This document shows positions 5,233 to 35,009 of a stretch of 36,656 nt of DNA, in pieces. Position numbers and translations under genes: made by a program. The notes beneath the pieces are model-generated. The model made no database searches. It saw nothing but the letters and a program-made list of their open reading frames with translations, and was not told the DNA's origin. The stretch comes from a virus. Location: IMG/VR virus record IMGVR_UViG_3300043419_000216, positions 1-36,656 of that record; one strand, written 5' to 3'. The first letter of the stretch is position 1. Every line of letters starts with the position of its first letter.

Positions 5233-6648
5233 ATGCAGATTCCCATCGTCAGCGGCATCTACACTGACCAAGGCCCAGACCTTCGCAGCAGCTATCCTGT
5301 GAACATGATGCCTGTGCCCAAGACGCAGGGCATCAGTTCTGGCTACCTGCGGCCTGCTGACGGGCTTGTCGAGATCCTGACAGGGCCGGGTGTGGATCGC
5401 GGTGGCATCCTGTGGAATGGCGTGATGTACCGCGTGATGGGCAGCAAACTGGTCAGTATCTCTGACGAGAACGTACTAACCATTCTGGGCGATGTCGGAG
5501 GATCGACAGGGCTGGTCGTGATGGATTACTCCTTCGACCATCTTGGCATCGTGTCTAACGGCAACATCTATTTCTGGGACGGCACGACGCTGGCTGTTGC
5601 TAGTTATTCCACCGTTCCTCCAGTTGGGTATGTTCTTGATTTTTGCTTCATCGACGGTCGTTTCATGATCACCGATGGCTTCAAGTTATTTTGCACCAAT
5701 GTAGGAGATCCGTTCACCATTGAGCCGTTTGCGTATATTGAGCCTGTAGCCGACCCTGATCCGATCATTGCCATCATCCGGCTCAGGAACGAGGTCTATG
5801 CGCTCAACCAGTACACCATAGAGGTGTACGAGAGCATCACAAGCAGCGTGCCGTTCCCGTTTCAAGTCATTGAAGGGGCGCAGGTTCAGAAAGGTGCCAT
5901 CGGCACTCAGGCTTGCTGCGTGTTCATGGAGGCGCTGGCTTTCATGGGTGGTGGCCGCAATGAAGCGCCCGGCATCTATATCGGTACTAACGCCATAGCC
6001 AACAAAATCAGTACGCAAGAGGTCGATGAGATCCTTGCCACTTACACAACTGCGCAATTAGCTCAAGTCAAACTTGAAGCTCGTAACCTGAAGGCGCAGC
6101 AACTGCTTTATGTCCATCTGCCCAATCGCACGCTAGTTTACGACGCTGCATCGAGCCAGGCGCTCCAGCAGCAGGTCTGGTCTGAGTTGACTAGCAGCAT
6201 TGACGGCTACTCTCAGTACCGCGCTCGCAACTTTGTCTGGGCATATGACAAGTGGATGGTCGGAGATCCAACCAGCAGTAAGATGGGCTACTGCGTGGAC
6301 AGTATCTCTACGCACTGGGGTGATACGGTGCGCTGGGAGTTTGGCACCACCATCGTGTATAACAAGGGCAACGGTGCGCTCTTCCATCAGATTGAACTCG
6401 TGGCGCTCACTGGCCGCGTAGCGCTTGGAACTAATCCCTGGATCAGCACCTCGTACTCTTACGACGGTCAGGCGTGGAGCCAAGACCGTGCAATCCAGGT
6501 GGGCACGACTGGGCAGACGCAAAAGCGCCTCGTGTGGTTCCAACAAGGCAACATGCGGAACTGGCGCGTGCAGCGGTTTAAGGGTGACAGCCAAGCGCAC
6601 CTGTCGTTCGTGCGTCTGGAGGCTCAAATTGAAGGCCTGAACTACTGA
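5233..6648 (+). CDS. Tail hub / packaged-DNA stabilisation protein, P22 gp10-like
   Basis: A 471-residue protein, almost exactly the length of P22 gp10 (472). Residues 1-35 show the family opening: IPIVSGIY, then RSSYPVNMMPVPK. The rest is Tyr/Trp/Gly-rich beta structure with repeats of VMDYSFDHLGIVSNGNIYFW type, consistent with a beta-propeller-like fold. P22 gp10 forms a hexamer between gp4 and the needle and closes the portal. It is followed immediately by the needle-like gene (TGATG). The length match, opening motif and order make this a firm call. Confidence 0.88.
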   Translation: MQIPIVSGIYTDQGPDLRSSYPVNMMPVPKTQGISSGYLRPADGLVEILTGPGVDRGGILWNGVMYRVMGSKLVSISDENVLTILGDVGGSTGLVVMDYSFDHLGIVSNGNIYFWDGTTLAVASYSTVPPVGYVLDFCFIDGRFMITDGFKLFCTNVGDPFTIEPFAYIEPVADPDPIIAIIRLRNEVYALNQYTIEVYESITSSVPFPFQVIEGAQVQKGAIGTQACCVFMEALAFMGGGRNEAPGIYIGTNAIANKISTQEVDEILATYTTAQLAQVKLEARNLKAQQLLYVHLPNRTLVYDAASSQALQQQVWSELTSSIDGYSQYRARNFVWAYDKWMVGDPTSSKMGYCVDSISTHWGDTVRWEFGTTIVYNKGNGALFHQIELVALTGRVALGTNPWISTSYSYDGQAWSQDRAIQVGTTGQTQKRLVWFQQGNMRNWRVQRFKGDSQAHLSFVRLEAQIEGLNY

Positions 6649-7430
6649 TGGCCTCGAACAAACTCAACCTGACGCGCGATGAACTCGCGTCATTTCTGAA
6701 GAATCACCATCAGATTCGTCAGTTTGAGCGGCTGTTTGCTGATGTCGAGCAGTTGGAGCCTACGACTCTTGATGATTTGGCCCTGTCTGGCGAGAACGCA
6801 GCTCAGAAGGCTGTCCAAGCACTGGACACCCTTGTGGCGCATAAGCAGGCGCTTGAGGTCACGGTGGCGGCGCTGGAGGCCAAGGTTAACCAAGCCGTCG
6901 GCGCATTGACCGCGATCAGTCAGGACTTGTCGTTCCTGATGCAAGCGCCGCCGCCGAGGGAGTTCAAGCGATCCCGCTACGGCTCGTTCTACGATACGAC
7001 GACGCAGACGGCCGCAGTCATCAACACTGCCTACGCCATGACGTTTAATACGACGAGCCTGAGCAGTGGTGTCTACGTCGGTAGCCCGACCTCGCGTATC
7101 TACGTTGACACGCCTGGTATATACAATTTCGACACATCGTTTCAGTTGGATAAGACCGCTGGCGGCGTTGGCCTGTTCTATATGTGGTTCAGGCTCAACG
7201 GCGTGGATGTACCCGATAGCGGCAGTCAGATCAGGATTCAGGGCAACAACGCGGAAATATTTTCGTCGCTCAACTTCTTTTTTGAGTTGGGCGCTGACGA
7301 TTACGTCGAACTAATGTTTTCTGTTGACGACATAACGATTCAACTTTTGGCAGAACCGGCTACTGCGCCCCATCCTGGCGTGCCGTCGGTTATTCTGACC
7401 GTGGCAAACAACATTCAAGGGGTTCAGTGA
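6648..7430 (+). CDS. Needle-like protein: coiled coil plus C1q/TNF-like C-terminal domain
   Basis: A 260-residue protein directly after the gp10-like gene, the place of the P22/Sf6 tail needle gp26. Residues 1-40 are a helical anchor (DELASFLKNHHQIRQFERLF). About 45-100 form a heptad-rich coil. From about 115 to 260 a beta-rich domain follows with the C1q/TNF hallmarks: TPGIYNFDTSFQL, then MWFRLNGVDVPDSGSQIRI and FFELGADDYVELMFSVDD. Sf6 gp26 has a TNF-like knob at its tip, so a trimeric needle with a knob fits well. The N-terminus does not clearly match P22 gp26, so a small adaptor fibre remains possible. Confidence 0.7.
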   Translation: MASNKLNLTRDELASFLKNHHQIRQFERLFADVEQLEPTTLDDLALSGENAAQKAVQALDTLVAHKQALEVTVAALEAKVNQAVGALTAISQDLSFLMQAPPPREFKRSRYGSFYDTTTQTAAVINTAYAMTFNTTSLSSGVYVGSPTSRIYVDTPGIYNFDTSFQLDKTAGGVGLFYMWFRLNGVDVPDSGSQIRIQGNNAEIFSSLNFFFELGADDYVELMFSVDDITIQLLAEPATAPHPGVPSVILTVANNIQGVQ

Positions 7431-12464: not shown

Positions 12465-14825
12465 ATGTCCGCACTGTCCGTCAATCCGCCGTTTCCCATC
12501 TTCCTCGACATTGACGGCCAGCCGCTCGATGCCGGGTACATCTACTTGGGCGTGGCTAACCAGGCCACCGAGGCCAATCCGATCCAAGCCTATTGGGACG
12601 CAGCGCTGACGGTTGCAGCGACGCAGCCGATTCTGACTCGTGCCGGCTTCCCTGTGAACGCTGGCGTACCGGCTCGGGTGTACGTCAACAGCGACTTCTC
12701 GATTGTGGTCAAGAACCGCAACGGGTTTCAGGTGTTCTCATCGCCCACCTGCACCGACAAGTTCAACGACGCCGTGGTGCAGGTTGACTCGTCAGATGTC
12801 ACGTTCCTCCAAGCAGGCACCGGCGCAGTCACGCGCACCGCTCAAAGCAAGATGCGCGATACCGTGAGTGTCAAGGACTTTGGGGCTGTCGGTGATGGAG
12901 TGACGGATGATACGGCGGCTTGGCAATTGTGGATCAATTATTGCGCGTCAGCGAAGGTGTCGTTCGCGTGCCAAGAACGATTAACTTCGCGTATCACTGG
13001 CAAGCTGGTGTTTCCGAAGGTGTTGGTCACGATCAACGGTGTTTCCCGTGCGTTGCCTATTGATTTGCGCGGCGTGGACTTTCTTTATGATGGCCCGAGG
13101 AATGACATCGCAATTGACATTGGTGAAGCCCCAAGCGCCACCGGGTATTACCTTGAAACAGATATTTTTCTCCCGCGTCTGACTGCTGCAGGTTCGCTGC
13201 AATGGCCCGGAACAATCGGTGCAACCGACATTGGTGTGCGTATTCGACAAGGGTTCCGCTGCCGCATACATGAGAACTATATTTACGGTTTTACCAATGG
13301 CATTGTGTACTCAGGTTGTGCCTATAACACAATCATCGCCAAGCACATCCAAGACTCAAAATTCAGTCTGGTTTACACCACCCAAGGATCAAACCACAAT
13401 CATAGTTTCACAAACGAAAACACTCGCATAGGCGGACGTATGTCCACCAGCAGTACAGCAATTCCGCTGGGCGATGCTTTCCGGGTTGTGTTTACTTGGG
13501 ACAAGGTAAGCAGCTACCAAGGCCACAACGCTAATCGTTTCATTGCGCCGTGCTTTGAGGGAAACGGCGCTGGCACCTATCAGATGCCAATTTGGTTCGA
13601 CGGCGCGGGTGGTATTAACTCTTTCAGCAATGCTCGACTTGAGGGAATGAAAGGTCCGGTTGGATTGTTCGACGGTGGCGGAGGCGCTAGGGCTTTCGGA
13701 ACAACAATTCACTTGGACTACATCGCGTCATCCAACCAGCAGATTTCACTTCGTCAGGTCAACGGCGCTTGCGGAAATACCTTGACTGGTGTCGGGTGCA
13801 GCACAGACGAGTGGCACAGCGGCGATCTTCAAAAACTCGTGACGAGTGCTGGCGCGGCTGGAACTGCATGGTTACGTGGCGAAGAGCTTTTCTTCATCAA
13901 TGCCGGAACACCAACAATCAGTGATTTCAAGCGCATTGAAACAGTCTTTACGACCGCCGTGATAATGAACCGCAACGGCATTCAACTTGCGGCTGGCGGC
14001 GCGTTTCGTGTCGGCGTAGCGATTGACGCCACCCGTATTAAAGACTTTGAGTGCTCTTTTGAAAGCCAAGACGGATTTAACGGCAGGCCAACCTTTATCG
14101 CGCTTAATAATCAGGGTCAAATACTTAGTGGATTGGCGACGGAGACCTTTGCAAACCCTCTTACGGGGGTTACCTATGCAAATGAACAGCACATAAAGGG
14201 GACCTATTATACCGGAGACAGCGGCCAGCAACTGGGGTCAACGGTTGCAGCAAGTATTTCTTCTGACTCTCCGTTTGGCAGAACGATGCGTATTACTGTT
14301 CGGCCAGAAGTGAATACTCTTGTATTTGCGGTGACGGCTGCATCCACTGTGGCACTCATCAAGAGCTTGAGCGTAAAAGGCTTTGCCACAAACAACAAGC
14401 TGGGCGAAGCATATTTGCTGGCCGGTGGTAGAGGCGCTTTGCGTGTGTTTTCGCTGACGGATGACGATGGCGGTGAGCGCATTGCTACAGCAAACCCGGC
14501 AACCGCTGGGACGTTGGGGTACTACGGGCGTGGCGCTGTTGTTTACAACCGCAGTGCAGCGTCAGGCGTTACTGCGGGCTGGCAGTGTACTGCCGCCGGG
14601 TGGCTTTGCCCTGCGTGGGTAGGATCAACGGCGTATGCAACCCCAGGAATGCTGGTCACAAACGACACCGGTAAGGTATACGAATTGACCACGCCGGGCA
14701 CTTCTGCTTCGTCTGGTGGCCCAACTGGCACGACGGCGACTTGGGACGGCATTACAGACGGCACCTGCAAGTGGCGTTACATCGGAACTCTTGCCACCTT
14801 TACGGCATTGCCAAATAACCCATGA
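12465..14825 (+). CDS. Tailspike 1 (head-binding domain plus pectate-lyase-like beta-helix)
   Basis: A 786-residue protein with AGGA upstream of the ATG. Residues 1-110 are a P22 tailspike-type particle-binding domain (GYIYLGVAN, YWDAALT, VYVNSDFSIVVK). At 134-152 lies the neck motif VSVKDFGAVGDGVTDDTAA that opens pectate-lyase-fold beta-helices. Residues about 150-600 would be the polysaccharide-binding or cleaving helix. The C-terminus (about 720-780) has a separate module, WVGSTAYATPGMLV then SASSGGPTGTTATWDG, common at the ends of phage fibres and probably carbohydrate-binding. Shares its first 150 residues with the spike at 16179 but not the rest. Confidence 0.88.
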   Translation: MSALSVNPPFPIFLDIDGQPLDAGYIYLGVANQATEANPIQAYWDAALTVAATQPILTRAGFPVNAGVPARVYVNSDFSIVVKNRNGFQVFSSPTCTDKFNDAVVQVDSSDVTFLQAGTGAVTRTAQSKMRDTVSVKDFGAVGDGVTDDTAAWQLWINYCASAKVSFACQERLTSRITGKLVFPKVLVTINGVSRALPIDLRGVDFLYDGPRNDIAIDIGEAPSATGYYLETDIFLPRLTAAGSLQWPGTIGATDIGVRIRQGFRCRIHENYIYGFTNGIVYSGCAYNTIIAKHIQDSKFSLVYTTQGSNHNHSFTNENTRIGGRMSTSSTAIPLGDAFRVVFTWDKVSSYQGHNANRFIAPCFEGNGAGTYQMPIWFDGAGGINSFSNARLEGMKGPVGLFDGGGGARAFGTTIHLDYIASSNQQISLRQVNGACGNTLTGVGCSTDEWHSGDLQKLVTSAGAAGTAWLRGEELFFINAGTPTISDFKRIETVFTTAVIMNRNGIQLAAGGAFRVGVAIDATRIKDFECSFESQDGFNGRPTFIALNNQGQILSGLATETFANPLTGVTYANEQHIKGTYYTGDSGQQLGSTVAASISSDSPFGRTMRITVRPEVNTLVFAVTAASTVALIKSLSVKGFATNNKLGEAYLLAGGRGALRVFSLTDDDGGERIATANPATAGTLGYYGRGAVVYNRSAASGVTAGWQCTAAGWLCPAWVGSTAYATPGMLVTNDTGKVYELTTPGTSASSGGPTGTTATWDGITDGTCKWRYIGTLATFTALPNNP

Positions 14826-16178: not shown

Positions 16179-18467
16179 ATGTCTGCTCTGTCCGTCACCC
16201 ATCCGTTTCCGATCTTCACTGACTCGGACGGTACTCCCCTCGATAATGGCTACATCTGGATCGGTCAGGCCAACCTCGACCCTCAGGGCAATCCGATCAA
16301 TGTGTACTGGGATGCAGCACTGACCCAGATCGCAGGCCAGCCGATCCGCACGATGAACGGCTACCCGGTTCGCAATGGATCGCCCACGACCCTGTACGTT
16401 AACGCCGACGACTACAGCATCCGGGTGCAGAACAAGAACGCCGCGACGTTGTATAACGCTGCGTCTGCCGCTCAGGATCTTGGCAACATCTCGTCTGCGC
16501 TGATCACGTTTGTACAGGCAGGTACTGGTGCTGTCAGTAGGTCAGTGCAGAGCAAACTGCGCGACACGGTGTCGGTCAAGGACTTCGGGGCGGTTGGCGA
16601 TGGGGTGACCGATGACACGGCGGCGATTCAGGCGGCTGTGACGTATGGGCTTGCCAATAACGTTGCTGTGTATTGGCCCAAGGGCACTTACCTGTGTGGT
16701 GCGCTCACCGCCTACAGCGGCGGCGATTTGATCTGGTACGGTAACGGTGATGCCGAGATCAAGCGCACTGGCACCGACATCACGCTGATCTCGCCAACCG
16801 GCGATGTGAGTTGCAGCGGCCTGAAGTTCACCGATTACATGATCGGGTTCAACTTCACTGGCATTGCGGCGGACAAGATTATCTCGTTCAAAGACTGCAA
16901 CATTGAAAACTGCGGCACGACTGCGACTGGTGCAGGCCGCGTTGACTTCCAAGGGTTCATCACCAACAAAAACGCTACGTCGAACAAGATTGCCCGACTT
17001 GAGGTGCTGAACTGCAACTTTGTTGGAGATGACTTCTGCATCAGTTGGCAGGGCAAACTCTCCAGCGCCTTGGTGAGCGGGAACTCATTCACGACTGTGC
17101 GACGTATGGCAGTGCTGATCGGTTTGCAGGCAGCAGGGCGCACGTCGAAGGATTGCGAGAACATTGTCATCACAGACAACGTATTCCGCGACATCGTTTC
17201 CAACGATGCGGCGGAGTATGAGATTCACGCCGTGCTGATTTACGGCTACCGAGTTGTGGTGTCCAACAACACTGTCGATACCTGCGCTGACATTAATGCC
17301 TCAACGCACGACAGTGAAGCGATCTATCTGAAAGCGGTGCTGGCAACTGTTGAAGGCAACATCGTGCAGGACGGCGGTCGCGGCGACGGGATGATCACCG
17401 TCAAGGGGGATGCGTTTGCCAATGAGCCAGATGATGTACCAGACGCAAATAGGGCAAAGTATGTCATTGTGTCTGGCAACGTTCTAAACATTAGCGACGA
17501 TTTTGTCGCAACTTACAACACACCGGCTTCTGCAATTTATGCTGCTGGTTCTAGGGTTGACGTTAAGGACAACACCATCTCAGGAACCCGTGACCGAGGG
17601 ATAAATCACACCTCGTCCGGTGAAATTTCCGGCAATGCAATCAACGCGGTGTCAGGGTACGGGGTTCTCCATGTAGCAGGATCTTCTACCACGACGGCTG
17701 ACAGTTCGTTCATCCGCATCCTTAACAACATCGTAGAATTTTCAGGGCTGATGTCATCTGGGATTCAGACGCGAATTGACTCGGCAACGGCGACGACGTT
17801 CCCGGCTGTGCAGATTGACGGGAACATTGTCCGTATGGGCGCAGCGTCTTCGCTTGGCGGTGAATCAGCGCTTATCAGCGTCAAGCCACAGCGTATTGCT
17901 GTTGGGAATAACACTTACACGCTCGTTCAGTGCAACAACAATCAGTTGTTTGGACTCGGGAGCGGCGTATTTCCAGAGGGCGTTCTGCTGGTGACCAATG
18001 TCGGCACTGGAAATAATGGCCTTGTTACGACGCTCCATTGCATTGGAAACAGCGGGAACAATTTCAACAACGCAGTCCGGCTTGACGCTACTGCGGGCGA
18101 TGTTGCGTATATGCACGTTGCTGACTGCACATTTCAAAGTGTCAACAACCTTGCGTTTTCAAACCCCAGCTTGGCTACCACTGCCAAAATTCGCAACATT
18201 CGCGGCAACCGCGTACTGACGAACAGTGGCACGGCGACGATAACTGCGGCTGTTACTGAGGTTACTGTGACGATGGGTATTCAGAGCACGATGCGACCCA
18301 CATCACTTAGCCTGATCAGCGTGCGCCCAACCAACAACCTTGGCACTGCAACCAAGTGGTGGATCGACACGCTGTCTGGTGACACATTCAAGATCAAGGT
18401 GGACGCGGTTCCTGGCGCAACGACGGCAACCTTCGCGTGGGAAGCGAAGAATGAGTATTACTACTGA
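16179..18467 (+). CDS. Tailspike 2 (paralogue of tailspike 1 in the head-binding domain)
   Basis: A 762-residue protein with GGGAAC before the ATG. Residues 1-150 closely follow tailspike 1: MSALSV, PFPIF, GYIWIGQAN, YWDAALT, QAGTGAVSRS and DTVSVKDFGAVGDGVTDDTA (129-148). After that the proteins diverge. The body has many short turns with Asn ladders (VVVSNNTVDT, VVSGNVLNI, VDVKDNTISG, GEISGNAINA), the mark of a right-handed parallel beta-helix. The C-terminus (about 690-762) is a compact beta domain ending in EAKNEYYY. A depolymerase or receptor-binding role is inferred. Only one of the two C-terminal types carries the fibre-end module seen in tailspike 1. Confidence 0.88.
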   Translation: MSALSVTHPFPIFTDSDGTPLDNGYIWIGQANLDPQGNPINVYWDAALTQIAGQPIRTMNGYPVRNGSPTTLYVNADDYSIRVQNKNAATLYNAASAAQDLGNISSALITFVQAGTGAVSRSVQSKLRDTVSVKDFGAVGDGVTDDTAAIQAAVTYGLANNVAVYWPKGTYLCGALTAYSGGDLIWYGNGDAEIKRTGTDITLISPTGDVSCSGLKFTDYMIGFNFTGIAADKIISFKDCNIENCGTTATGAGRVDFQGFITNKNATSNKIARLEVLNCNFVGDDFCISWQGKLSSALVSGNSFTTVRRMAVLIGLQAAGRTSKDCENIVITDNVFRDIVSNDAAEYEIHAVLIYGYRVVVSNNTVDTCADINASTHDSEAIYLKAVLATVEGNIVQDGGRGDGMITVKGDAFANEPDDVPDANRAKYVIVSGNVLNISDDFVATYNTPASAIYAAGSRVDVKDNTISGTRDRGINHTSSGEISGNAINAVSGYGVLHVAGSSTTTADSSFIRILNNIVEFSGLMSSGIQTRIDSATATTFPAVQIDGNIVRMGAASSLGGESALISVKPQRIAVGNNTYTLVQCNNNQLFGLGSGVFPEGVLLVTNVGTGNNGLVTTLHCIGNSGNNFNNAVRLDATAGDVAYMHVADCTFQSVNNLAFSNPSLATTAKIRNIRGNRVLTNSGTATITAAVTEVTVTMGIQSTMRPTSLSLISVRPTNNLGTATKWWIDTLSGDTFKIKVDAVPGATTATFAWEAKNEYYY

Positions 18468-28369: not shown

Positions 28370-28552
28370 ATGCCAGAACTTGAGAAGCTGCGGCAGATGC
28401 TGGCAGACAGAAACATCCAAGCCGTTGCGCGAGGAGCAGGCGTTCATCCGAATGTTCTGTACCGAATGATGGCTGGAGCAAGCCCGAAGTACGAGACAGT
28501 CCAGCGCGTGATGGCCTACTTGAACCGCCAAGAGGCAGTCACTAATGGCTGA
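28370..28552 (+). CDS. Small HTH regulator, 60 residues (Cro-like)
   Basis: ATG at 28370 follows AGAGGA by seven bases. The sequence LEKLRQMLADRNIQAVARGA then GVHPNVLYRMMAGASPKYET and VQRVMAYLNR is a compact helix-turn-helix of the short phage type (QAVARGAGVHPNVLYRMM; the NVLYRMMAG recognition helix). The gene is first of the rightward operon and lies next to the divergent promoters, so autoregulation is likely. Its last eight bases overlap the primase-helicase gene. It is too small to be a CI-type repressor with a dimerisation domain. Confidence 0.85.
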   Translation: MPELEKLRQMLADRNIQAVARGAGVHPNVLYRMMAGASPKYETVQRVMAYLNRQEAVTNG

Positions 28553-30602
28553 CTTATCAAGGGTGTTTGGCGGGCCGTGGTCGCCGCCTCCAGAAAAGCC
28601 ACTTGCCTCTCCAGATCAACAACTGATTGACGCCATCAGAAACGCTGGTCTTGAGCCGCCAGATCAGGTGATTTTTGACGGCAAGATTCACCGATTCAAA
28701 ACCGGCACCAAAGGCAGCGCAAGCAAAGGCGGCGACAAGTCCGGCTGGTACGTTGTATTTGGCGACGGTATCCCTGCTGGTCGCTTTGGATGCTGGCGCA
28801 TGGGGTTTGAATCTCCTTGGCGTGCCGATATCGGCAGGAAGTTTTCTGCCGTAGAAGAAATGGCGCATGTTAAGCGCATGGCAGAAGCCAAGGCTCTTAG
28901 AGACGCTGCGCTAGACAAGCAGCACGAAGTCGCAGAAAGCATCGTCGATACGATCTGGAGCCAAGCATCTCCAGCCAACGCAGAGCATCCATATCTCAAG
29001 CGCAAGGGGATTCAGTCGCACGGCGCTCGCATCACTGGCGACGGGAGGCTGATGCTGCCTCTGTTTGGCCATGACGGGACATTGTGTTCTTTGCAGTACA
29101 TCGACAATGAAGGCGGCAAACTCTATCACCCAGGCGCAGAAGCCGGTGGCAAGTTCTGGATGGTCGGGACAATGGACGAACCCGGCACGTTATACGTTGC
29201 CGAAGGTTTTGCCACAGCCGCCACAATCCATGAGACAACCGGCAGGCCGTGCATCGTTTCGTACAGCGCCAGCAGCCTGGTGCCAGTGACCGCCAGCCTG
29301 CGCGAGATGTATGGCAACACGCAGGACATCGTTATCGTAGCCGACCACGACAAGCATGGCGTGGGCCAGAAGTATGCCGACCAAGCCAGCGCAAAATACG
29401 GCGTCCGCGTTGTCATGCCTCCCATCGAAGGCATGGACGCTAACGACTACAAACAAGCCGGGCACGATCTCACAAGCCTGCTGGTGCAGCAAACCGGAAC
29501 TGCGGTAATCGACAAACTGCAAGTCGTCTTTGGCGATCAACTCGGTAGTGACTACGAAGCTCCAGACGAACTGGTCGAAGGCCTGATGACCATTGGCAGC
29601 TCGGTGGTGGTCTACGGCGACAGCAACTCAGGCAAGACATTCTGGGCACTGTCAGTGGCAACAGCAATTGCCAATGGAACAGACTGCTACGGACGCAAGA
29701 CCGATCCCGGCCTAGTTGTCTACTTGGCCAGCGAAGCACCAGCAAGCATCAGATCTAGGATGCAAGCCATCAAGAAATTCTACGGATGCAGCCTGGAAAA
29801 CCTTGCAATGGTGCCGGTTCCAATGAACTTCTACACCGGGCCTCAAGACGCCCACGACGTCATCGAAATGGTTCGATCAGTAGAACAGATCAAAGGCAAA
29901 CCCGTCCGACTTATCATCGGAGACACACTCGCCAGGATGAGCGCAGGAGCCAACGAGAACAGCGGCGAGGACATGGGGCCAGTTATGGCCAGATTCGATC
30001 AGGTAGCTACCGCCACCGGAGCCGCCATGATGATCATTCACCACAACGGCAAGGACGCCGCTCGAGGCGCTCGAGGATGGTCAGGCATCCGCGCACACAT
30101 CGACACAGAAATAGAAGTCACAGAAAAAGAAGGCGTTCGATCCGTCTCTGTCACCAAGCAAAGAGAATTGCCAAGCAAAGGAGAAACAATATATTTCAAA
30201 CTTGAAGTCATTGAAATGGGAACCACAAAATTCGGAGGCGCTGCAACTACTTGCGTGGCCGTTCCAGACCTTGAATCAGAAACAAATAAACCTCACAAGA
30301 AACCAACAAAACACGACGAAAACACAAGAACATTTGAAAGAGCATGGTGGGCATCAGGTGCAGAAGAACGCGACGGCATGCCTTATGTCTCCAGATCAGC
30401 ATTGCGTGATCTTTTAATTAAAGACGGCAACGCAGAACGAACCGCAAAGAATAAAACTGAATCCTCCAGATCAGATAGCTTGGTCGGACAACTCATCAAC
30501 TCGGACACCATCGAACCCTACGAACACGGCTGGATCGTCTCCAACAAGGTGCAATCCAGCGCCATGATCATGCAGAAAACAGGCCGACAGAAACGCCCCT
30601 AA
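28545..30602 (+). CDS. Toprim primase / RepA-like helicase
   Basis: A 685-residue two-part protein. Residues about 130-310 form the primase: HPYLKRKGI, RLMLPLFGHDGTLCSLQYI, TLYVAEGFATAATIHE (catalytic E220), and IVIVADHDKHGVGQ (D267, D269), followed by GMDANDY. From 340 to about 590 lies a RepA/AAA_25-type ATPase: Walker A YGDSNSGKT (357-365), Walker B LIIGDTLARM (456-465) and IIHHNGKD...ARGWSG (498-513). No zinc-binding CHC2 head is seen. Residues 590-685 are a charged tail. It would prime and unwind for host polymerase. Its stop codon lies in the first repeat unit of the candidate origin. Confidence 0.92.
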   Translation: MADLSRVFGGPWSPPPEKPLASPDQQLIDAIRNAGLEPPDQVIFDGKIHRFKTGTKGSASKGGDKSGWYVVFGDGIPAGRFGCWRMGFESPWRADIGRKFSAVEEMAHVKRMAEAKALRDAALDKQHEVAESIVDTIWSQASPANAEHPYLKRKGIQSHGARITGDGRLMLPLFGHDGTLCSLQYIDNEGGKLYHPGAEAGGKFWMVGTMDEPGTLYVAEGFATAATIHETTGRPCIVSYSASSLVPVTASLREMYGNTQDIVIVADHDKHGVGQKYADQASAKYGVRVVMPPIEGMDANDYKQAGHDLTSLLVQQTGTAVIDKLQVVFGDQLGSDYEAPDELVEGLMTIGSSVVVYGDSNSGKTFWALSVATAIANGTDCYGRKTDPGLVVYLASEAPASIRSRMQAIKKFYGCSLENLAMVPVPMNFYTGPQDAHDVIEMVRSVEQIKGKPVRLIIGDTLARMSAGANENSGEDMGPVMARFDQVATATGAAMMIIHHNGKDAARGARGWSGIRAHIDTEIEVTEKEGVRSVSVTKQRELPSKGETIYFKLEVIEMGTTKFGGAATTCVAVPDLESETNKPHKKPTKHDENTRTFERAWWASGAEERDGMPYVSRSALRDLLIKDGNAERTAKNKTESSRSDSLVGQLINSDTIEPYEHGWIVSNKVQSSAMIMQKTGRQKRP

Positions 30603-30669
30603 ACGCCCCTAAACGCCCCCAGGGGCAAAAGGGGCAGCAGGGGCAAAAGCCCGGAAAAACGCCCCTCCC

Positions 30670-30697
30670 TGCCCCTATACCCTAGAGGGTAGGGGCA
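30670..30697. other. Imperfect hairpin in the candidate origin
   Basis: TGCCCC (30670-30675) pairs with GGGGCA (30692-30697), and TACCCT pairs with AGGGTA, with a two-base bulge and a short AG loop. Twelve base pairs in total. It could extrude as a cruciform or form a terminator-like stem, but no T-run follows. Confidence 0.7.
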
Positions 30698-30732
30698 GAG
30701 GGGCACCGGGATGCGGGGAAAACGGGGCAAAG

Positions 30733-30741
30733 TTATCCACA
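30733..30741 (+). other. Consensus DnaA box TTATCCACA
   Basis: TTATCCACA is the strongest-binding DnaA box sequence known from bacterial origins. Here it stands 30 bases before the DUF3310 gene and a few bases after the last GGGGCA unit. Only one perfect box is seen in this region. Host DnaA could help load the replisome. Confidence 0.7.
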
Positions 30742-30762
30742 GGAAAGTGAGGAACCACTAAC

Positions 30763-31002
30763 ATGACAAGTGATGCTAAGTTGACCGCCAACGACACCCA
30801 GGTCGGCGGGGATCACTACAAGCGTAAAGCAGTGCAGCCGTGGGATTTTATTGCCGCCAATAACCTCGGATATTTTGAAGGCAACATCGTAAAATATATT
30901 TCCAGATGGAGAGATAAAAACGGAATGGACGATTTACTCAAGGCTCGGCATTATTTGGATAAACTCATTGAGATTGAAAATGGCAAAAACTCCATCAGAT
31001 AA
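30763..31002 (+). CDS. DUF3310 (SaV-like) protein
   Basis: A 79-residue protein with the full DUF3310 pattern: QVGGDHYKRKAVQPWDFI, then NNLGYFEGNIVKYISRWRDK and DLLKARHYLDKLIE. This small helical family is common in phages and of uncertain function; it is often near nucleotide or replication genes. GAGGA lies nine bases before the ATG. The gene overlaps the small terminase by 23 bases and leads the packaging genes. Confidence 0.92.
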   Translation: MTSDAKLTANDTQVGGDHYKRKAVQPWDFIAANNLGYFEGNIVKYISRWRDKNGMDDLLKARHYLDKLIEIENGKNSIR

Positions 31003-32627: not shown

Positions 32628-35009
32628 ATGGCCAGAATCTCAAATGAACAGCGGTTACATAACCTCCATGCTGAGGCGCTGGCCGAGTTCGACAAAGTGC
32701 AGTCCGCTCTGCGAGACGAACGACTTCAGTGTCTGCAAGATCGGCGTTTTTACAGTATTTCCGGCGCTCAGTGGGAAGGCCCACTGTGGGATCAGTACGA
32801 AAACAAACCGAAGTTTGAAGTCAACAAGATCCACATGGCGGTCATTCGGATCATCAACGAATACCGAAACAACCGCGTCACGGTCGATTTTGTCAGCAAG
32901 GAGGGCTCTGAGTACGACAAACTCTCAGACACGCTTGATGGACTGTACCGCGCCGACGAGCAGGACTCCGTAGCATCCGAAGCCTACGACAATGCCTTTG
33001 AAGAAGCCGTCGGTGGTGGATTCGGTGCCTGGCGGCTGCGTACAGAGTACGAAGATGATGAGGATGACGAGAACGAAAAGCAGCGGATCTGCATTGAGCC
33101 GATCTTTGATGCCGACTCGTCCGTGTTCTTTGACCTTCAAGCTAAGCGCCAAGATAAATCAGACGCCAAATTTTGCTATGTCCTCACTGCGATGACCAGA
33201 GACGCCTACCGCGAGGCGTATGAGGACGACCCGACAACCTGGCCCAAGACCGTCCACCAGTATGAATTCGATTGGATGACGCCCGACGTCGTTTTCATCG
33301 CTGAGTATTACCGGGTCGAAGAAGTCAACGAAACAATTCGCATCTTCCAGCGCATTGACGGCGAAGAAGAACGATACCGCCGAGAGGACTTTGAGAACGA
33401 CGAGACGCTTGAGGACACTCTCGCGGCTATCGGCACAGTCGAAGTGCGCCAGAAGCGTGTCAAGCGTCGCAAGGTTCGCAAGTACATCATGAGCGGCGGA
33501 CGCGTTCTTGAGGATTGCGGCTATATCGCAGGCAAGAACATTCCTATCGTGCCGACCTACGGCAAGCGCTGGTTTGTGGATAACATCGAACGCTGCATGG
33601 GCCACGTTCGCCTGGCCAAAGACGCTCAGCGCCTTCGCAATATGCAGTTGTCAAAGCTCGGTGAGATTGCTGCACTGTCCAGCGTCGAAAAGCCCATCCT
33701 GACCCCTGAGCAGGTCGCTGGGCACCAATTGATGTGGGCAGAGGACAACATCAAGGATTACCCGTACTTGCTGATCAATCCTGTCACTTCGGCAGATGGA
33801 TCAATGCAGGTAAGTCCGCCTGTCGGCTATACGCGCTCGCCTGCCATCCCGCCCGCTCTGGCCGGAATCATCTCGGTTACTGAGCAGGACATGAAGGACG
33901 TTCTTGGCAATCAAGAACAGGGTGACAAGATTGTCAGCAACATCAGCGGCAAAGCCGTAGAGATGATCCAGCAGCGGCTGGATATGCAGACGTTCATCTA
34001 TATGTCCAACTTCGCCAAGGCCATGAAACGCTGCGGCGAGATTTGGCTTTCAATGGCGCAGGAAATCTACGTTGAAGAAGGCCGCAGCATGAAGGCCGTC
34101 AACGAAAACGGGGACGTATCATCAGTCGAACTGATGAAGCCTGCGATCAACACAAACGGCGAGATGGAGTACGAGAACGATATCTCGTCTGCTAATTTTG
34201 ACGTTGACGTTCAGGTTGGCCCGACCAGCCAATCCAAGCGAGCAGCAACCGTAAAAGCATTGACCGGCATGCTGGCCATTACAACTGACCCTGAGACCCA
34301 GCAGGTTCTGCAAGCAATGGCGATGATGAACATGGAAGGCGAAGGTATCTCCGATGTCCGGGACTTTTTCCGCAAGAAACTTCTGAAACTTGGCGTCATC
34401 AAGCCAACTGATGAAGAGGCGCAGCAGTTGATGATTGAAATTCAGGGTCAGCCGCAAGACCCCAATACAATCTTCTTGCAAGCCGCTGCTGAAGAGGCTG
34501 TTGCCAAGGCAGCTAAGGCTAGAGCAGACACGGTTCTTACAGTTGCCAAAGCCGAAGAAACACAAGCCAAAACGCTTGAAACAATGTCCAAGATTGGCGG
34601 AGAAGTCACAATTACGGCGCAGCCGGAGACATCATCCCCCACCGGCCAATCTCAAGCGCAGCCTGCGCCAATGAACGATAATTCTGACATTGAGCGGATG
34701 AAGATGGAGCTTGAGCTTGAATCTTTGCGAGCAGACACTGCAATCAAAATTGCAAAGCTTGCAGACATGGAATCTCAAATTGTAAAAACCAGAGAAGAAA
34801 GTCAGTCAACTGTTGCCATGACTGAGGCCATGCAAGCTATGCGTGAGATGATGCAGAGCCTGAACAACGCAGGAAATGGCTTGAAAGAATCTCTTGAAAG
34901 TATGTCAAGATCAAGCAAAGAAACAGCAGACAAGGCCGTCGCAGCAATCAAACGCCCAAAGCGGATTATCCGTGAGAATGGCAAAATCGTAGGCATTGAA
35001 ACGGAGTAA
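32628..35009 (+). CDS. Portal protein, P22 gp1-like
   Basis: A 793-residue protein (P22 gp1: 725) following the terminase after 11 bases, with CAGGAA before the ATG. Features of the P22 portal family: early WEGPLWDQYENKPKFEVNKI, then RIINEYRNNRVTVDFVSKEG, acidic DDEDDENEK, and IPIVPTYGKRWFVDNIERCM. Residues about 620-793 form a long Ala/Glu/Lys coiled coil, the barrel-like C-terminal extension seen in this family, here longer than usual. Portal dodecamers are the packaging channel and bind gp4. Confidence 0.92.
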   Translation: MARISNEQRLHNLHAEALAEFDKVQSALRDERLQCLQDRRFYSISGAQWEGPLWDQYENKPKFEVNKIHMAVIRIINEYRNNRVTVDFVSKEGSEYDKLSDTLDGLYRADEQDSVASEAYDNAFEEAVGGGFGAWRLRTEYEDDEDDENEKQRICIEPIFDADSSVFFDLQAKRQDKSDAKFCYVLTAMTRDAYREAYEDDPTTWPKTVHQYEFDWMTPDVVFIAEYYRVEEVNETIRIFQRIDGEEERYRREDFENDETLEDTLAAIGTVEVRQKRVKRRKVRKYIMSGGRVLEDCGYIAGKNIPIVPTYGKRWFVDNIERCMGHVRLAKDAQRLRNMQLSKLGEIAALSSVEKPILTPEQVAGHQLMWAEDNIKDYPYLLINPVTSADGSMQVSPPVGYTRSPAIPPALAGIISVTEQDMKDVLGNQEQGDKIVSNISGKAVEMIQQRLDMQTFIYMSNFAKAMKRCGEIWLSMAQEIYVEEGRSMKAVNENGDVSSVELMKPAINTNGEMEYENDISSANFDVDVQVGPTSQSKRAATVKALTGMLAITTDPETQQVLQAMAMMNMEGEGISDVRDFFRKKLLKLGVIKPTDEEAQQLMIEIQGQPQDPNTIFLQAAAEEAVAKAAKARADTVLTVAKAEETQAKTLETMSKIGGEVTITAQPETSSPTGQSQAQPAPMNDNSDIERMKMELELESLRADTAIKIAKLADMESQIVKTREESQSTVAMTEAMQAMREMMQSLNNAGNGLKESLESMSRSSKETADKAVAAIKRPKRIIRENGKIVGIETE

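Follow-up and report, generated by a model that had tools for sequence, protein, structure and literature searches.

A repeat array behind a phage primase-helicase gene as a probable replication origin, with a repeat word that tracks a predicted recognition helix

We found that the repeat array at positions 30591-30741, directly behind a phage primase-helicase gene, is very likely the replication origin of this phage, and that the primase-helicase itself very likely recognizes the array via its C-terminal winged helix. Origin activity and binding are both inferred here, with no replication data for the one and no binding data for the other, and all of the evidence is comparative. The window, by which we mean the whole stretch of DNA analyzed, is a 36,656-base IMG/VR virus record. 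Its two ends share 127 identical bases. This length is probably that of an assembler k-mer overlap, for which it is typical, rather than a true terminal repeat, suggesting that the genome is circular as assembled.

The array and the gene before it

The primase-helicase gene (28545..30602, plus strand) encodes 685 amino acids comprising a Toprim primase, a RepA-like hexameric helicase, and a C-terminal winged helix. A Toprim-type primase domain was detected at residues 216-305 (Toprim_3, E 4.6e-11), followed by a RepA-like AAA_25 domain at residues 327-505 (E 2.2e-29). When solved structures were searched with phmmer, RSF1010 RepA (1g8y) was matched by residues 348-509 (E 5.9e-7). The winged-helix domain, the proposed reader of the repeats, spans residues 589-682 (30309..30590, plus strand), as placed by an AlphaFold2 model of the homologous domain and a full-length model. 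The homologue's domain was predicted with pLDDT above 90 throughout. The nearest solved folds included winged helices of the ArsR/MarR type, which are ordinary repressors, at Z 6-7 (VIA-align, at most 7.1), and Foldseek with the winged helix returned nothing below E 0.001. The structural neighbors thus show the common winged-helix fold only.

We confirmed the anatomy of the array by computation. The sequence-only reading had described four AAACGCCCC units, six GGGGCA units, a 12-bp hairpin, and a TTATCCACA box behind this gene, with the first unit overlapping the stop codon, and all of these elements were found where it had placed them. The AAACGCCCC units start at 30591, 30601, 30611, and 30657, the first three at a 10-bp period, and the first of them ends on the T that begins the TAA stop codon (30600-30602). 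The GGGGCA units start at 30622, 30631, 30640, 30692, 30700, and 30724. Together these form two dyads. The left dyad consists of three forward units AAACGCCCC(T) with a 10-bp period (30591..30619, plus strand) and three inverted units TGCCCCT with a 9-bp period (30621..30645, minus strand). The right dyad (30650..30710, unstranded) runs in the order two forward units, hairpin core, two inverted units, and comprises an outer stem (30650-30654/30706-30710), a unit stem (30661-30665/30700-30704), and an inner hairpin stem (30671-30682/30687-30696) closed by a loop at 30683-30686. The hairpin, TGCCCCTATACCC-TAGA-GGGTAGGGGCA, is real, and it has 11 pairs and a 2-nt bulge in place of the 12 bp first described. 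The sixth GGGGCA unit (30724..30729, minus strand) lies between the hairpin and an exact DnaA box, TTATCCACA (30733..30741, plus strand).

The clustering of units exceeds chance. The window contains 50 GCCCC pentamers, and 11 of them lie inside 135 bp, against an expectation of 0.2 for an even spread, and the whole window holds fewer of these pentamers than shuffled versions of it. No second GCCCC cluster was found in the window. A 158-nt stretch folded better than all 200 of its dinucleotide shuffles (z -3.5 as DNA, -4.2 as RNA). The sequence, read without a melting calculation, revealed no obvious AT-rich opening region from 30588 to 30762.

We analyzed the remaining genome for replication functions. 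As the sequence-only reading had proposed, no phage DNA polymerase was matched among the large open reading frames and proteins scanned, and neither a separate RepC initiator nor a RepB' primase was matched among the window proteins scanned. A GC-skew check had also been suggested. On the 36.5-kb circle, cumulative GC skew reached its minimum at 32.7 kb and its maximum at 18.1 kb. We dropped skew as an origin locator: the minimum lies 2.0 kb off, the floor is flat from 28 to 34 kb, and the result is confounded by gene direction, which switches at 28.3 kb. The skew is compatible with an origin at the array but uninformative, and decides nothing. Elsewhere in the window, two tail-spike-like proteins (12465-14825 and 16179-18467) have near-identical N-terminal starts (MSALSV..PFPIF.D.DG.PLD.GYI) and are probably paralogous receptor-binding proteins.

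Downstream of the array lie a DUF3310 gene, the genes for the small and large terminase subunits, and a portal gene. The terminase genes start ~240 bp past the array, where pac or cos sites often lie, so we considered whether the array could be a packaging site read by the terminase small subunit. We regard this as very unlikely. There is no fixed proximity to terminase: in relatives the distance to the large-subunit gene ranges from 0.8 to over 3 kb and the intervening genes vary, and the array-bearing Alteromonas phage PB15 has no annotated terminase large subunit within 5 kb downstream. In addition, the repeat word follows the primase-helicase and not the terminase.

Conservation of the array in related phages

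The first relatives collected were 80 primase-helicases from viral contigs, 97 to 50% identical to that of the window. The full comparison set comprised 236 loci with distinct ends, including those from further queries and six annotated phage records. Most of these loci come from contigs of uncultured phages, and related sequences contribute to the E-values and counts. The array was found behind the primase-helicase gene in nearly all relatives, with a varying gene after it. When the whole viral collection was searched with nothing but an array pattern, 48 contigs were retrieved, and the primase-helicase gene was directly before the array in 48/48; the pattern was built from the GCCCCT family and therefore tests that family only. 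The same two-dyad plan (forward-inverted, then forward-hairpin-inverted) occurs in the relatives, whose distinct repeat words number 15 or more. These include GCCCCT in the window family, TCCCCC (L044), TCACCT (L050), GGTAAC (L066), GGGAAC (L070), GGGACA (MW202867), GGGGACA (L306), GGTTCA (PB15 and XX1924), GGTACA (1N2-2), GGTACC (L251), CGCAAC (L231), CGTAAC (L232), GGGACTA (L229), and GTGACA (L245). The sequence-only reading had held that a lack of conservation of the repeats in relatives would count against an origin. The letters are indeed not conserved, but the architecture is, as is a match between the word and a residue of the protein, described below.

Several loci depart from the plan. 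No recognizable array was present behind the gene in L069, L213, and L085 (MW202475), and in these three the recognition helix was altered or shortened. L148 carries two full tandem arrays, ~30-400 nt past the stop codon, GGTAAC then GGGACA, with one hairpin each, which could reflect capture of a second origin. In L159, L043, L046, L053, and L058, genes are inserted between the primase-helicase and the array, which is kept; the L159 insert is ~960 bp long (6025-6984) and carries an acyltransferase-like gene. L417 appeared to have an array away from the gene, and this was rejected: the gene precedes the array and a second gene fragment follows it. In L011, L012, L016, L018, L019, and L030, the right half is a variant that lacks the DnaA box; its hairpin is longer and GC-rich, and a T-run and paired CCTATAGG motifs precede the next gene. 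The block GTTATCCACAGGAAAGTnAGnAnnCACTAACATG (window 30733-30765) is common to the window and L002-L031, with different genes beginning exactly at its ATG, a sharp mosaic boundary. The helicase part (window residues ~325-585) appears to differ in subtype from that of L066-type proteins, the N-terminal part and array position being common to both, which looks like a possible domain swap. A search for plasmid-borne relatives found no record with the whole protein, the best matches being Toprim/LPD7-domain proteins with partial coverage. A host search by contig scan of GTDB genomes matched only two distant Spirochaetales MAG loci. We found no description of the array in the literature searched, which left out most subscription papers.

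To characterize the hairpin, we compared its 20-pair structure across 22 window-type relatives and found 96.6% of the 440 cells paired. Nine pairs were changed on both sides, and the covariation score was 0.235 versus 0.052 for shuffles and at most 0.027 for slid partners. Variants of the outer stem included CCCGG/CCGGG, CCCGTT/AACGGG, CCAGTT/AACTGG, and CCCAG/CTGGG. Because neither the outer stem nor the core consists of repeat words, this compensation cannot come from word switching alone. Template-switch correction of palindromes remains a possible contributor. We rejected a G-quadruplex reading, as the G-runs of GGGGCA are lost in relatives with GGTAAC, GGTTCA, or GGTACA words.

A compensated hairpin with a good RNA fold could also be an RNA element on the primase-helicase transcript, such as a terminator, attenuator, or regulatory RNA. 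This is very unlikely, since Rfam gave only chance matches far under the gathering scores, and the helical-turn spacing, inverted units, and DnaA boxes indicate duplex DNA. The word also co-varies with a winged helix, normally a reader of duplex DNA.

We also found that DnaA boxes are enriched behind the gene. An exact TTATCCACA occurred at most 400 nt from the gene end in 40/68, 60/65, 26/44, and 11/15 loci of four families, with 166 boxes in all in the 60/65 family, and in 4/37 of the other loci. The background elsewhere in the same loci was 0.004 per 400 nt, and the overall enrichment was more than 100-fold. The window has a second exact box inside the portal gene (33575-33583, minus strand), probably by chance. 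The single exact box in the window's array is unremarkable alone, and its conservation in relatives carries the weight. The earlier proposal of assistance by host DnaA held in part: boxes are enriched but absent from some lineages, suggesting that DnaA help is common but not obligatory.

A recognition-helix residue that tracks the repeat word

The predicted recognition helix of the window protein, placed from models and comparison, spans residues 631-637 (RTAKNKT; 30435..30455, plus strand). We analyzed a clade of 67 phages whose arrays carry either GGTAAC or GGGAAC and found 407 variable protein columns, of which a single one predicts the word in every phage. This column, residue 628 of L070, is Gln in 34/34 GGTAAC phages and Val in 33/33 GGGAAC phages, and corresponds to N635 in the window. 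The residue is predicted to sit in the recognition helix (model residue 85; helix 80-86). Two phages, L134 and L137, have a flank of the Val type yet carry Gln, and their words are GGTAAC. L159 seemed to break the rule, and this was rejected when its Gln was found to go with a GGTAAC array behind the ~960-bp insert.

At the nucleotide level, association with the word was complete at codon 628 (MI 1.00) and high at codons 634-635. The DNA between the codon 628 region and the array, though nearer the array, was only weakly associated (mean MI 0.08-0.14), so simple linkage does not account for the match. For the same reason we judged it unlikely that helix and array are inherited as a linked cassette, although recombination could still take part in the switches. 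On a tree of residues 1-540, residue 628 changed 11 times, at least 9 of them on supported branches, and word and residue switched together in 9/9 independent pairs (p = 0.004). A rival explanation is that the repeats are read by a different, linked protein for which the helix residue is merely a marker, given that phage modules move together. This is very unlikely in view of the single fully associated column, the unassociated DNA nearer the array, and the recurrence of the switch on the tree, bearing in mind that the scan did not cover every other protein of these phages.

Further positions and clades extend the pattern and set its limits. Three residues further along, a second position pairs with the word in the GGGACA clade, where 42 phages have Gln but the 5 with GGGGACA have Lys; these 5 look like two lineages. 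Among distant members, Gln at the first position goes mostly with GGT words (L246, L248, L251, L252, L317), and in our comparison Met there also accompanies GGT-type words (L230, L232). The mapping of helix to word is not one-to-one over long distances, as L036 combines a GCCCC-type helix with TCCCC units. Of the 33 GGGAAC-type arrays in the Val class, 23 keep one forward GGTAAC, as the first or second unit of the left dyad (e.g., L070, L068, L080). Specificity may therefore not be absolute, or this unit could have a role of its own or be a relic of an older word.

Recognition does not by itself establish an origin. The array could be bound by the primase-helicase yet serve as a regulatory or maintenance site, for autoregulation, incompatibility, partition, or transcription termination. 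In favor of this, the co-variation shows recognition and not origin firing, and an intergenic element behind a gene could also stop transcription. We consider it unlikely. The array would be a poor operator because it lies behind the gene rather than before it, and unrelated genes follow it in relatives. In L159, L043, L046, and L053, another gene separates the primase-helicase from the array. DnaA boxes together with recognition by the primase-helicase best suit an origin.

Proposed mechanism and comparison with known systems

We propose that the winged helices of a primase-helicase oligomer would bind the repeat units (in the window GCCCCT, in both orientations) in the two dyads. Binding would bring the RepA-like hexamer onto the origin; the probable loading point is the central hairpin, extruded or unwound, or melted DNA next to it. 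The Toprim primase would then prime, and a host polymerase would extend. In most lineages host DnaA would bind alongside and aid opening of the DNA. Recognition helix and repeat word change in step within the family. Binding, loading, opening, and priming are inferred steps, and we regard the model as a whole as likely. The replication origin put forward by the sequence-only reading, served by a phage primase-helicase, is thus supported and sharpened by comparative evidence, in the absence of a replication or binding assay.

A bolder reading is that this is a switchable origin code, in which single substitutions on one recognition-helix face, together with concerted rewriting of the units, repeatedly re-address replication. 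This would create mutually blind origin alleles among close relatives, driven by conflict at the origin. Taken jointly, these claims are not excluded, but we lean slightly against them. The sources of conflict can only be guessed at; co-infecting relatives in competition are one candidate, and word-copying satellites or origin-directed nucleases another. Origin-directed nucleases and swapping of replication modules are known from the conflict between ICP1 and PLE (PMC8263062).

If the model holds, the origin of a large phage family is located and its reader named, and the rule linking residue to base is testable by swapping a single residue. The roughly fifteen natural origin words, each paired with a reader, could be raw material for mutually compatible plasmid origins. 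The family also offers a clean case of a protein and its DNA site changing together many times.

Three known parts are joined here in one chain, namely a Toprim primase, an RSF1010-type helicase, and a putative iteron-reading winged helix. By analogy, the logic of the model has its precedent in the alpha protein of satellite phage P4, and the place and hairpin have theirs in pRN1 and BPP-1. One polypeptide, P4 alpha, unites a Toprim-type primase, a helicase, and a C-terminal winged helix by which it binds the repeats of its origin (PMC4234260). The window protein shares this layout, with the winged helix predicted and repeat binding inferred, but the P4 helicase is of the SF3 type whereas that of the window is of the RepA/AAA_25 type. 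P4 also has an ori and a separate crr, in contrast to the single array behind the gene with a compensated central hairpin and a DnaA box. In pRN1 plasmids and Bordetella phage BPP-1/BIP-1, a stem-loop lies behind a primase-helicase gene with a C-terminal winged helix; its structure is kept, its sequence varies, and specific binding was undetected (PMC4234260). The window likewise has a stem-loop directly behind the replication gene with structure conserved over sequence. However, those systems combine a Prim-pol primase with an SF3 helicase and lack iterons, whereas the window combines Toprim with AAA_25 and has iterons, and in its family both the word and the proposed reader residue can be named. 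This suggests where to seek specific binding in stem-loop origins of that type. Since its helicase is of the RepA type and not SF3, the window system belongs to neither the P4 alpha nor the pRN1/BPP-1 type.

The IncQ plasmid RSF1010 uses repeats and stem-loops for priming (PMC4234260). Its RepA is related to the window's helicase domain, and repeats and stem-loops are common to both. In RSF1010 the work is divided among RepA, RepB', and RepC, with RepC reading the repeats, whereas in the window the proposed reader, motor, and Toprim primase are one chain. With its short-repeat array, whose reading by the cognate initiator is inferred from co-variation, and an adjacent DnaA box, which is not present in all lineages, the window resembles iteron origins as a class. 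Lambda O is a phage initiator with origin repeats. It is a separate initiator that recruits a host helicase, with the origin inside the O gene, unlike the window (for O proteins of Stx phages, see PMC7466680). The short iterons of geminiviruses vary among close relatives, in each case fitting the cognate Rep (PMC12548392). The matching of word and reader is the likeness to the window family; geminivirus Rep is a rolling-circle HUH protein of single-stranded DNA plant viruses, unrelated in protein and mechanism.
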